Shown: piece by piece, positions 45,451 to 52,136 of the stretch
Position numbering within the stretch: the stretch's first letter is position 1
Layout: each line of letters opens with the position of its first letter
Notes under the pieces: model-generated
What the model was told of the DNA's origin: nothing
What the model saw: the letters and a program-made list of their open reading frames with translations, nothing else
The model's database searches: none
Translations under genes and position numbers: made by a program
NCBI RefSeq assembly: GCF_016592435.1
Contig: NZ_AP014545.1
Span: 620,001 to 684,000, forward strand
Length of the DNA stretch: 64,000 bases
Source: Amphritea japonica ATCC BAA-1530
GTDB taxonomy: Bacteria; Pseudomonadota; Gammaproteobacteria; Pseudomonadales; Balneatricaceae
Reading direction: 5' to 3'

Positions 45451-47643
45451 ATGTCCTTAGATGTTGATCAGGAAATTCTTGAAGATTTTTTAGTTGAAGC
45501 TGGAGAGATCTTAGAGCTGCTATCGGAGCAGTTGGTTGATCTTGAGCAGCACCCTGAAGATCGGGAATTGCTTAATGCTATCTTCCGTGGCTTTCATACG
45601 GTTAAAGGTGGCGCTGGATTCCTACAGCTTGATCCTATGGTTGACTGCTGTCACAGCGCTGAAAACCTTTTTGACCAATTGCGCAATGATGCATTAAAAG
45701 TATCCGCGGGTTTGATGGATTTGGTGCTTCAGGCGCTGGATAGCATTAATGCAATGTTTGAGGCGGTTCAACAGGGAAGTTATCCCGATGTGGCAGATCC
45801 TCAGTTGTTGGCTGGCTTGAATGCAATGGCTGCAGGTCAGGTAGTGGCAGCGAGTCCGGCTCCTTCTGCTGCACCAGTAGATACATCACCGCAAACCGAT
45901 GCGACAGTGAGTGCAGAGTTCGATCAGTTAGTGGCGGACTTGGGCAGTGAAGAGCTCTCTCTTCCCGACAGTGGGGTGTTATCAAACGACCTGATTACAG
46001 AAGATGAGTTTGATGATCTGCTCGATAAGTTGCATGGGCCTGCAGGTGCGCCAGGGTTGGCTACTGAGCCTGCGATAGCCCTGGATCCAAATTTGATTAC
46101 AGAGGATGAATTCGAGAGTTTACTGAATGAGCTCCATGGTCCAAGTGGTGCGCCCGGACTTAGTTCCGTTGATGTTGAGGCTGGGAGTGCGGATGCCAAT
46201 GCTGAGTTTGATCAGCTGCTGGGTGATGGGTTGTCGCCTGTATCTGCGCCTGTAGCTCAGGCCTCTGCCGGAATCCCTACTGATCTGATCACCGATGATG
46301 AATTTGAGCATCTGCTGGATGATCTTCAGGCAACTGGCCAAGGGGCGTTTTCTCAAAATGTGGCTGCCGCACCGGCACCGGCAGCTGTGCCGGCTAAGCC
46401 TGAGCCGAAGCCTGAACCCAAGCCCAAACCCAAACCTAAAGCGCCAGTGTCAGCTAAAACACAGACTACAAAACCGGTGGCTGAAAGTAATGTCAGGGTT
46501 GATACCCGCTTGCTTGATCAGATCATGAATATGGTGGGTGAGTTAGTTCTGGTGCGAAACAGGTTAGTCAGACTCGGTTCCGAAAAGGATGATGGAGATC
46601 TGAGTAAGGCTCTTGGGTCATTGGATATGGTGACCGCTGATCTACAGATGTCTGTTATGAAAACCCGGATGCAACCGGTTAAAAAAGTATTTGGGCGTTT
46701 CCCTCGTCTGGTACGTGATCTTTCTAGACAGCTGAATAAAGAGGTTAATCTGGAGCTGCGGGGAGAAGAGACTGATCTGGATAAAAATCTGGTTGAAGCC
46801 CTGGCGGATCCGCTAATTCATCTGGTCCGTAATGCAATAGATCACGGTATCGAAGAGCCTGAAGTTCGGATTAATAACGGCAAGTCAGGCCAGGGTCACG
46901 TGTTACTGTCTGCAGAGCAGGAAGGGGATCATATTCTGCTTGTGATCCAGGACGATGGCGCGGGTATGGATCCGGAGAAGCTACGTAGCTTAGCTATAAA
47001 GCGGGGTATGCTTGATCCCGAAGCTGCTGCTCGTTTGAGTGATCATGAGTGTTATAACCTGATATTTGCAGCGGGATTTTCGACAAAAGAGCAAATCTCG
47101 GATGTATCGGGTCGTGGCGTGGGCATGGATGTGGTGAAAACCAAAATTACCCAGCTCAATGGTAAACTCGATGTCGATTCAAATCTTGGTCTGGGATCGC
47201 GAATAGAGATTCAGGTGCCGCTGACACTGGCGATTATGCCAACCTTAATGGTGTTGTTGAAAGACCAGGCGTTTGCTTTACCGTTGGTGAATGTTAATGA
47301 AATCTTTAACCTGGATCTTACCCAGATAAATATGGTTGAAGGTCAGCAGGTGATTATCGTCCGCGATAAGGCGATGCCTTTGTTTCACCTGAAGCGATGG
47401 TTGTTAAAGGGGCATGAGAAAGAACCATTGCCAGAGAATGGACATGTGGTGATCACTAATATCGGTAACATGCAGGTTGCCTTCATTGTGGATCAATTAG
47501 TAGGACAGGAGGAGGTGGTCATTAAACCGCTTGGTTCCGTCTTGCATGGTACTCCAGGACTTTCCGGCGCAACTATTACCGGCGACGGAAAAATTGCACT
47601 TATCGTAGATATTCCTAGTTTGTTAAAGGCCTATGCGAACTGA
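45451..47643 (+). CDS. cheA: Chemotaxis sensor kinase CheA
   Basis: A receptor-coupled kinase that phosphorylates CheY and CheB. 730 residues: HPt/P1 (1-110; His49 in IFRGFHTVKGGAGFL), a long linker (about 130-345), dimerisation P3 (RLLDQIMNMVGELVLVRNRL), HATPase P4 (HLVRNAIDHGIEEP, DDGAGMDPEK, GRGVGMDVVKT) and CheW-like P5 at the end. No P2-like fold is apparent. Instead the linker has three FliM-like repeats (residues about 180, 214, 278) and a Pro/Lys stretch near 310-330. It is 12 bases after cheZ. Confidence 0.95.
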   Translation: MSLDVDQEILEDFLVEAGEILELLSEQLVDLEQHPEDRELLNAIFRGFHTVKGGAGFLQLDPMVDCCHSAENLFDQLRNDALKVSAGLMDLVLQALDSINAMFEAVQQGSYPDVADPQLLAGLNAMAAGQVVAASPAPSAAPVDTSPQTDATVSAEFDQLVADLGSEELSLPDSGVLSNDLITEDEFDDLLDKLHGPAGAPGLATEPAIALDPNLITEDEFESLLNELHGPSGAPGLSSVDVEAGSADANAEFDQLLGDGLSPVSAPVAQASAGIPTDLITDDEFEHLLDDLQATGQGAFSQNVAAAPAPAAVPAKPEPKPEPKPKPKPKAPVSAKTQTTKPVAESNVRVDTRLLDQIMNMVGELVLVRNRLVRLGSEKDDGDLSKALGSLDMVTADLQMSVMKTRMQPVKKVFGRFPRLVRDLSRQLNKEVNLELRGEETDLDKNLVEALADPLIHLVRNAIDHGIEEPEVRINNGKSGQGHVLLSAEQEGDHILLVIQDDGAGMDPEKLRSLAIKRGMLDPEAAARLSDHECYNLIFAAGFSTKEQISDVSGRGVGMDVVKTKITQLNGKLDVDSNLGLGSRIEIQVPLTLAIMPTLMVLLKDQAFALPLVNVNEIFNLDLTQINMVEGQQVIIVRDKAMPLFHLKRWLLKGHEKEPLPENGHVVITNIGNMQVAFIVDQLVGQEEVVIKPLGSVLHGTPGLSGATITGDGKIALIVDIPSLLKAYAN
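45988..46332 (+). repeat. Three FliM-like acidic repeats in the CheA linker
   Basis: In the coding frame: DLITEDEFDDLLDKLHG (from 45988), NLITEDEFESLLNELHG (from 46090) and DLITDDEFEHLLDDLQA (from 46282). The first two are also followed by near-identical P-[AS]-GAPGL. They share D-L-[IL]-[TS]-x-D-E-[FI]-x-x-L-L with the FliM N-terminus DLLSQDEIDALLHG encoded at 33807. Confidence 0.85.
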
Positions 47644-47679: not shown

Positions 47680-48770
47680 ATGACAGTTCGGGTTTTAGTT
47701 GTCGATGACTCGGTTTTTTTCGTAACCGAATCAGTCAGATGCTGGCTGCGCATTCAGGTATTCAAGTTGTTGATACAGCGAAGAATGGGAAAGAGGCTGT
47801 CGCGAAAGTAAAGCAGCTGAAGCCTGATGTCGTTACGATGGATGTGGAAATGCCGGAAATGGATGGCATAACGGCGTTGAAACTAATCATGGCTGAAAAT
47901 CCTTGTCAGGTGGTGATGTTGTCCTCGCTGACGCGACGCAGTGCTGCGGTTACGCTCGAAGCTCTGGCATTGGGCGCGGTCGATTATATGGAAAAGGATG
48001 CCAGGGCATGGGTGGCAGATTCCGCAACGACTGGTATGGCGCTGGTTGACAAAATTATAGCGTTGGGGGGGCGAAAACAAACGGTTTCTCGCCCGTTAAC
48101 ACCAATGAAATCAGAGCCTGAACATGTCTCAAACAGCAAGATAGATGCAGTGCCTGAGGTTGAAATTCCCGTTTCTGTTGATACGCTTCCAAAGTTTCCT
48201 GATTGTAAAATTGTGACTATAGGCTCTTCTACCGGAGGCCCTGCTGCTTTGCAGACTATTCTCACGGGACTACCGGGCGACTTTCCAGTGCCTGTTCTGC
48301 TAACTCAGCATATGCCTAAAGCGTTTACTACTGTATTTGCCCGCAGGCTGAATGATCTGTGTGCTATAAAAGTTAAAGAGGCAGAGGATGGGGATCAACT
48401 GTTACCGGGGTGCGCATATCTGGCTCCGGGCGGGCAACAAATGATTATTGATCCACTAAACGCTGCGAAACTAATTATTCGTGAAAGTGATGAACGGATG
48501 ACTTATAAGCCCAGTGTTGATCTGACGTTTGCATCGGTTGCTAAAGGGTATGGTTCACGGGTATTAGCAATTGTTCTGACCGGGATGGGAGCCGATGGCT
48601 GCGATGGTGCAAGAATGTTGAAAAAAGCGGGTGCCCGAGTGTGGGCTCAGGACAAAGACAGTAGTACTATCTTTGGTATGCCTAAAGCGGTTATTACAGC
48701 AGAGCTCGCAGATGCCGTGCTAAATATTGATAATATCAGACAGACTTTAACTCACTGGGGACAACGATGA
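47680..48770 (+). CDS. cheB: Protein-glutamate methylesterase CheB, frame interrupted near the N-terminus (-1 shift at 47714-47721)
   Basis: CheB demethylates chemoreceptors. The ATG 47680 frame reads MTVRVLVVDDSVFF and then goes off frame, stopping shortly after. From CGT at 47721 the -1 frame continues RNRISQMLAAHSGIQVV and runs to 48770 with receiver Asp (VVTMDVEMPEMDG) and the esterase triad (GSSTGGPAAL, LTQHMPKAF, GMGADGCDG). Joined by a -1 slip it is a 363-residue standard CheB. The break falls in seven T (47714-47720), forming U UUU UUC in the zero frame. It may be programmed frameshifting, transcript slippage, a real mutation or a homopolymer sequencing error. The 343-residue reading from 47739 lacks the acidic pocket and would not be phosphorylated normally. 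Confidence 0.85.
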
Positions 48771-49516
48771 ATCTGATCAGCCTGAGTGGCGTAGTGCTGG
48801 CAGTAATTGCAATAGTGGGAGGGAATCATCTGGCAGGAGGTGCAGTTGAAGACCTGCTGGATATTCCGGCTTTACTGATCGTGCTGGGAGGGACGCTCGC
48901 TGCAGTCTTTATTCAGTCATCTCAGTCGGAATTGTCCCGGGCTATAAAATTGTCCGGCATGGTTTTTGGGCGGGCTGATCAGAACTACCGTGACGGGATA
49001 AATAGCATTGTCAGCTGGTGCGTAATTGCCCGAAGAAAAGGGCTGCTGGCCTTGGAAGATGAAATAGACGATCAGCAGGACAGCTTTGTTCGTAACGGGC
49101 TGCAAATGTTGGTCGATGGCCGGGCTTCTGATGTTATCCGATCTACACTTGAAACCGAACTGGTGAGCCGTGAATATCGTGATATTCAGGCTGCCAAAGT
49201 GCTTGAAAGTATGGGTGGATACGCCCCTACAATGGGTATTATTGGTGCGGTCTTAGGGTTGGTTCATGTGATGTCTAATCTGGCCGATCCAGCAAGTCTG
49301 GGGGCCGGTATTGCGACTGCATTTGTTGCCACTATCTATGGTGTTGCTATAGCAAACCTCCTGTTTCTACCGTTGGCAAATAAGATTCGTTCAATGGTGT
49401 TACAGCGATTCTATTATCAGGAGATGATGTTGGAAGGGTTGCTTTCTATTGCTGAAGGGCAGAATCCTCGAATCATTCAATTACGGCTTCAGGGCTATCT
49501 GGAACAGGGGCATTAA
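48767..49516 (+). CDS. motC: Flagellar stator protein MotC (MotA family)
   Basis: The inner-membrane stator subunit that pushes on FliG. The 249 residues have four membrane helices (about 3-23, 32-52, 150-172, 180-202), with a cytoplasmic loop bearing charged residues (FVRNGLQMLVDGRASDVIRS). The family block is ESMGGYAPTMGIIGAVLGLV. The start overlaps the cheB stop (ATGA). Pairing with motD beside cheB matches the Pseudomonas motCD stator, which supports swarming there. Confidence 0.93.
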   Translation: MNLISLSGVVLAVIAIVGGNHLAGGAVEDLLDIPALLIVLGGTLAAVFIQSSQSELSRAIKLSGMVFGRADQNYRDGINSIVSWCVIARRKGLLALEDEIDDQQDSFVRNGLQMLVDGRASDVIRSTLETELVSREYRDIQAAKVLESMGGYAPTMGIIGAVLGLVHVMSNLADPASLGAGIATAFVATIYGVAIANLLFLPLANKIRSMVLQRFYYQEMMLEGLLSIAEGQNPRIIQLRLQGYLEQGH

Positions 49517-49519
49517 GCG

Positions 49520-50500
49520 GTGCCCAGGCGGAGAATTGAGGAGCAAAATCTCCATGCCCAGCGGTGGGTAATCTCGTACGCAGATTTTATTACCCTGATG
49601 TTTGCTTTTTTTGTCGTGATGTACGCTATATCGTCAGTTAACGAAGAAAAGTATAAGCAGGTAGCTGACTCATTGTCAGGTGTGTTTGCAGGTCCTGAAG
49701 GCGATGCTGAAAGAGCGATAGAGGGACAGTCTGAGACAGATCCTGCCGGTATTGGTGTGTTCCGGGGCGGAGAAGAAAATAGCCGGGTACCGACTGTAAA
49801 GATTATTCAGCCTAAGCCAGAAAATAGCGCGGTGTTGAAGGCGATTGGCGACCAGATGGAAGTGCAGTTCAAAAAGCTGATTAGCAGCGGGCATGTCGCA
49901 GTACAAAGTAATAATTTATGGGTGGCGTTGGAATTAGGGGCTAACCTGGTATACCCCGAAGGAGGGGCGCTGCCTGCAATTACCAGTGATCCGGTATTTG
50001 AGCGAGTGGCTAAAATTGTTAACCAGTATGATAATCCTATCCATGTTGAAGGTTATACCGATAACCAGTTTATCTCTTCAGATGAGTACCCGTCTAACTG
50101 GGAATTATCGGCTGCAAGAGCTGCAGGTGTGGTCAGGATTCTTGAGTTAAATAAAGTTAAGCCCCAGCGCATGGCCGCTGTCGGATTTGGTGAGTATCAG
50201 CCTTTAGCTGATAATGGGACCGAAGATGGCCGTAAGGTTAATCGTCGGATTGTGATTGTTATTACCCGTGATCGCAAAACTCAGAGAGTCGTTTCTGCTT
50301 TTGGTAGTGAGCAGGTTAGTGAGGATGCGGTTAGTGGTATCCTTACCGAAAGCGGATTGCCAGAGTCGGCAATAGAAAAGGTTGTAGATGAACAGGGGCG
50401 GATTAGTTTTCGTCGTAAAGATCAAACACAACCCATAGATATTGAAACATTAACGTCCCCGGAGAGTTTTGCTCCGCCGACACAGGAGTCACCGCAGTAA
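49520..50500 (+). CDS. motD: Flagellar stator protein MotD (MotB family)
   Basis: The ion-conducting, wall-anchoring stator subunit. 326 residues from GTG 49520. One membrane helix, VISYADFITLMFAFFVVMYA, holds ion-binding Asp22. A plug/linker follows, then an OmpA-type peptidoglycan-binding domain (about 140-250; HVEGYTDNQFISSDEYPSNW, ELSAARAAGVVRIL). The YADF context resembles proton-type MotB more than PomB. A Ser/Pro-rich tail follows. Confidence 0.93.
   Translation: MPRRRIEEQNLHAQRWVISYADFITLMFAFFVVMYAISSVNEEKYKQVADSLSGVFAGPEGDAERAIEGQSETDPAGIGVFRGGEENSRVPTVKIIQPKPENSAVLKAIGDQMEVQFKKLISSGHVAVQSNNLWVALELGANLVYPEGGALPAITSDPVFERVAKIVNQYDNPIHVEGYTDNQFISSDEYPSNWELSAARAAGVVRILELNKVKPQRMAAVGFGEYQPLADNGTEDGRKVNRRIVIVITRDRKTQRVVSAFGSEQVSEDAVSGILTESGLPESAIEKVVDEQGRISFRRKDQTQPIDIETLTSPESFAPPTQESPQ

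Positions 50501-51272: not shown

Positions 51273-51276
<4 letters not shown>
50500..51276 (+). CDS. parC: ParA-family ATPase of chemotaxis locus (ParC-like)
   Basis: A Walker-type ATPase that, in Vibrio and Pseudomonas chemotaxis loci, localises chemotaxis arrays to the pole. The 258 residues show deviant Walker [36 protein letters not shown] and Walker [16 protein letters not shown] overlaps the motD stop by one base. The neighbouring CheW-domain gene fits a ParC-ParP pair. A plasmid partition role is unlikely given context. Confidence 0.88.

Positions 51277-52136
<860 letters not shown>

Follow-up and report, generated by a model that had tools for sequence, protein, structure and literature searches.

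Programmed -1 ribosomal frameshifting of the kind described for insertion sequences and dnaX takes place at a correctly phased heptamer of the form X XXY YYZ (excerpts of PMC4066793). A downstream RNA structure usually follows 5–8 nt after the motif, and some known cases lack a Shine–Dalgarno (SD)-like stimulator. The same excerpts note that prokaryotic frameshift sites may lack a structural one. U UUU UUC, which is found in insertion sequences, is among the motifs that they list as shifting frame in E. coli at more than 0.10% with no stimulator present. Genes with a broken frame can also be rescued by transcriptional slippage, as in mxiE, spa13, tssM and the Buchnera mur genes; E. coli RNA polymerase inserted with a frequency of 0.75% at a run of T7, which was the shortest that allowed its productive slippage (excerpts of PMC6260861). 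For frameshifts found as singletons, the authors of GeneTack expect a sequencing error, and not a real indel, behind those validated by BLASTp; where Pfam confirms the shift as well, they name as likely either a sequencing error or an indel mutation in a pseudogene (excerpts of PMC3711429).

The gene that we compare with these systems is cheB, situated in a 64,000-nucleotide stretch of DNA (the window, G000:C1:620001-684000) from a genome of 3.83 Mb, which is a single contig with a completeness of 100. Its best-matching named loci place the genome in Amphritea, a marine genus of Oceanospirillaceae. cheB lies between cheA and the stator genes, its neighbours all have open frames, and the features of the region are the following (window coordinates):

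45451..47643, + strand: cheA, open frame directly 5' of cheB (ORF translation)
47680..47811, + strand: zero-frame ORF with 14 CheB and 29 foreign residues, ending in TAA (ORF translation, Pfam)
47709..48770, + strand: open -1 frame of 353 codons plus stop, the remaining CheB (Pfam: receiver from profile position 10 and whole methylesterase domain)
47714..47720, + strand: seven-T run, site of the frame break (sequence; relatives have T8, T7CC, T9 or interrupted codons)
47715..47721, + strand: in-frame heptamer T TTT TTC of the X XXY YYZ form (sequence)
47732..47748, + strand: 7-bp hairpin with 10 nt between heptamer and stem (fold, and pair counts in 12 relatives)
47739..48770, + strand: longest -1-frame ORF with an ATG, GTG or TTG start, 343 aa, lacking the first 20 CheB residues
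48767..48770, + strand: ATGA in which the motC start overlaps the cheB stop (sequence; same overlap in 7/12 genus loci)
48767..50500, + strand: MotA-like and MotB-like stator genes, open frames, which we take to be motC and motD (ORF translation, Pfam)

The cheB start codon, ATG 47680, is preceded by GGGGA. From here the zero frame encodes MTVRVLVVDDSVFF, which represents 14 CheB residues, and then 29 foreign residues, with TAA at 47809–47811 closing an ORF of 43 codons in all; a Pfam search with the 43-residue product gives zero matches. The T run comprises exactly seven T, followed by CGTAACC. A -1 slip at the run continues with the codons CGT AAC CGA and yields ...SVFFRNRISQMLAAHSG, and the resulting junction peptide, which neither gains nor loses a residue relative to the CheB N terminus of relatives, is 98.6% identical over 74 residues to L003 of the related genome G014. 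The first-pass annotation had described a frame that encodes the CheB start and then fails, an in-frame slippery heptamer formed by the seven T and the following C, and a -1 slip that restores the expected CheB without residue change, and our analysis confirms this description.

In the -1 frame, Pfam detects the full CheB_methylest profile (positions 1–174, 213 bits) and the receiver domain from profile position 10 onward, with the first 14 residues in another frame; a complete receiver domain within one reading frame was found neither by Pfam nor by translation. The break is beyond chance, since each of the six relatives compared over its syntenic stretch matches the cheB N terminus in the other frame at this point. 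The frame scan within the window gave 13 out-of-phase rows, six of which are cheB (one for each of six relatives), and the other seven represent six sites, of which five turn up against a single relative and the sixth against two. A scan by the HSP rule only gave seven rows, and cheB is absent from these since its N-terminal piece is below the threshold length.

We read the site in 14 relatives, namely 13 of the 16 same-genus genomes at the nucleotide level and A. pacifica (L036). cheB is in frame at the site in all 14; in 12 the frame was followed from its ATG and is open (359–381 aa), whereas for G010 and G001 the assignment relies on a matching N terminus together with an open frame as listed. 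T8 is found at the site in five relatives (G004, G012, G009, G016 and G008), T9 in one (G007) and GTT TTT TTC C in three (G014, G010 and G006); in the remaining five (G015, G011, G005, G001 and L036) the codons are interrupted. Between TCGG and CGTAACCGAATCAGTCAGATG, a stretch that includes the T run, the window differs from L033 and L034 in run length alone. Outside the 14, the best frames as listed for G003 and G013 are open for 407 and 414 aa, and in G002, a single-contig genome of the same genus, the best cheB matches are in three pieces (G002:C1:4248234-4249332). The G002 assembly looks homopolymer-collapsed, because its completeness is 78 and it has not one T9 match.

Among 390 genomes sampled from the order, the exact broken pattern occurs in two, this genome and G093, and the G093 match is outside cheB. 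The pattern is thus present in cheB in 0/389 other sampled genomes, in a search that is blind to breaks of other form and to relatives without V-F-F at this place. A conserved recoding site is rejected by this count together with the relatives (0/14 broken), and the frame break is best read as a singleton one-base indel.

Beyond the T run, no further lesion was seen in cheB. For the downstream 343 codons, dN/dS is 0.10 against G014, 0.09 against G004 and 0.08 against G012, compared with 0.085, 0.073 and 0.085 between those intact relatives; several of the underlying dS values are above 1 and are rough. Of all genes compared, cheB ranks first in dN/dS, in the intact relatives too, and cheA follows with 0.07, 0.06 and 0.06 against G014, G004 and G012. 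The downstream part of cheB is under purifying selection that is not clearly relaxed in comparison with the intact relatives. An old pseudogene is rejected by the dN/dS values, for which the intact relatives serve as control, and by the zero count of further lesions.

CheB_methylest has one Pfam match in the whole genome, which is this cheB. As Pfam finds no second CheB, a further copy that would make this one dispensable is rejected. The genome also holds one CheR gene (open frame, 611171–611758) and six receptors, counted as matches to the MCP signalling domain. Since the affected gene is the sole CheB found, selection on it is kept and a second lesion is absent, the break is either not in the cell or very recent.

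A homopolymer miscall in this assembly has, in our judgement, slightly better than an even chance of being the cause, and it is somewhat more likely than a recent real mutation. The locus would then be an ordinary cheB that lacks a single base in one assembly, at a T tract that is T8 in several close relatives; the base would be missing from the sequence, not from the cell, and the living strain would therefore probably make normal CheB. The first-pass annotation had put forward this error (seven T for eight) as an alternative, and the suggestion holds, with T8 in five relatives and run length alone separating this genome from L033 and L034. Also pointing to a miscall are the singleton nature of the break, the intact relatives, the low dN/dS, the position of the gene as sole CheB beside one CheR and six receptors, and the finding that G002, with its homopolymer-collapsed appearance, likewise has cheB in pieces. 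In terms of known classes, cheB resembles the 'H-pseudo / Error' singletons of GeneTack (excerpts of PMC3711429): one genome is affected, by a one-base change, and the protein is otherwise conserved. Among the features tested, there is zero difference between this class and cheB, and the finding is ordinary. If a miscall is the cause, this is a matter of annotation only, and calling cheB a pseudogene would first require verification.

Against a miscall stand the completeness of 100, the rank of cheB as the gene with the highest dN/dS (also in the intact relatives), and the behaviour of the rest of the assembly. Among 220 genes matched to G010 (464 kb of the genome, with 218 kb covered), cheB alone has a clear frame break. 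Seven other flagged rows from this genome and eight from the reverse scan, at G010, were set aside by inspection, as were the non-cheB rows of the two scans described above; from their peptides (one, row 307609, as DNA) they look upstream untranslated, antisense or tRNA-overlapping, the last being a peptide that we presume to be of this kind. In the set of 235 ORFs with an alignment to a G010 orthologue that spans 70% or more of the ORF, there are 52 homopolymer runs of at least seven, six of which are of at least eight. A/T runs of at least nine are few in the sample, with one in 464 kb (G000:C1:420001-884000) versus 10 in 520 kb of G010. In the whole genome, however, T9 has 27 matches in 3.83 Mb, or about 7 per Mb (a longer run is counted more than once), a low value that still falls within the approximately 5–17 per Mb of the 15 other genus genomes with T9 matches. 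Genome-wide homopolymer collapse is not supported, since the T9 count is inside the genus range despite the few long A/T runs in the 464-kb sample; for a local miscall, these counts are neutral.

Given this good overall assembly, a real mutation fits almost as well. A recent one-base deletion by slippage on the T tract, arising in the strain in nature or in culture and abolishing or strongly reducing CheB, is a serious contender to which we assign a little less than an even chance. Slippage at this position is plausible because T tracts of 8–9 are present at the site in 6/14 relatives, and the assembly is otherwise clean where tested. There is also precedent in spontaneous frameshifts in a cheB-like (wspF-like) gene of Pseudoalteromonas biofilms (excerpts of PMC8919034). 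Such a deletion would disrupt the one CheB that the genome is found to have, and neither a second lesion nor relaxed selection accompanies it, although a very recent event would look alike. In this case the strain is expected to be impaired in chemotactic adaptation. Under a real deletion, a little full-length CheB could come from unprogrammed slippage of RNA polymerase or the ribosome at the seven T; the E. coli rates of insertion at T7 (0.75%) and of frameshifting at the motif (more than 0.10%) lead us to expect trace amounts even if the gene is truly broken. The locus shares a frame broken at an A/T run with the genes rescued by slippage, but the runs in mxiE, spa13 and the mur genes are 9–10 long, and the seven T of cheB are at the lower limit for the E. 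coli enzyme (excerpts of PMC6260861).

The idea raised by the first-pass annotation, that -1 frameshifting at T TTT TTC is programmed, is very improbable, whether the shift is ribosomal or arises by transcriptional slippage; CheB dose, and possibly that of MotC and MotD, would then be set by it. The cheB–motC overlap, which may couple translation of the two genes, is confirmed. What speaks for it is a heptamer in the correct frame, of a type that shifts in E. coli without stimulators and occurs in insertion sequences, with canonical CheB as the -1 product. That the heptamer is perfect and that the protein is perfectly restored both follow from a single missing base and do not count as separate coincidences. 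CheB has V-F-F-R here, and when the codons GTT TTT TTT CGN lose one T, the zero frame necessarily reads T TTT TTC while a -1 slip always restores the protein. Nor is the heptamer at cheB beyond chance. In-frame T TTT TTN heptamers number 34 in the 235 ORFs with a G010 orthologue (75,734 codons), T TTT TTC accounting for six of these, and 9/14 relatives carry an in-frame heptamer in an intact cheB (three T TTT TTC and six T TTT TTT). As a -1 slip in those nine would abort CheB, the heptamer is no signal for making the protein. The first-pass annotation had regarded relatives that all have an unbroken frame and lack the heptamer as evidence against programming; the frame is indeed unbroken (14/14), whereas the heptamer is absent in 5/14 only.

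Stimulatory elements are likewise missing or not conserved. None of the five SD patterns taken from PMC4066793 is present in the 6–17 nt upstream of the heptamer, and an upstream SD-like stimulator is rejected. The 90 nt downstream fold no better than shuffled sequences (z = 0.04), and a 121-base segment does not fold clearly better either (z = -0.77), in tests that covered nested, pseudoknot-free structures. The 7-bp hairpin starts 10 nt from the heptamer; of its 7 pairs, 6–7 are kept in the three closest relatives, all with an intact gene, against 2–4 of 7 in the other nine; this pattern and the z-scores reject a downstream stimulator. The locus thus shares with the insertion-sequence and dnaX systems (excerpts of PMC4066793) a correctly phased X XXY YYZ heptamer but, unlike them, lacks conservation, an SD-like stimulator, significant structure and a recognisable zero-frame product, which here is the 43-residue stub without Pfam match. 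With the break absent in 14/14 relatives and the pattern in none of the 389 other genomes' cheB, the idea of programming was not sustained. Equally hard to credit is a variant in which the seven T are real, an ordinary T8 tract has turned into a recoding site in this lineage alone, and the strain makes its only CheB by slippage whose frequency sets the dose. If programming did operate, it would be the first case known to us of recoding in a core chemotaxis gene; judging by titles and the openings of abstracts, none of the papers found on cheB and programmed ribosomal frameshifting describes one.

Least probable of all is an N-terminally truncated CheB made from ATG 47739, which would keep the full methylesterase domain within a 343-aa ORF and, lacking the receiver acidic pocket with its role in phosphorylation control, would not be phosphorylation-controlled: inspection by eye found no SD-like sequence upstream of this ATG, compared with GGGGA before ATG 47680, and such a form occurs in 0/14 of the relatives read.

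Two other genes in the window contain repeats. The cheA linker (gene at 45451–47643) contains repeated segments of the type LITEDEF..LL..LHGP.GAPGL, and a CheW-like gene at 51273–52136 carries a long Pro-Glu repeat (approximately residues 83–149) ahead of its CheW domain.
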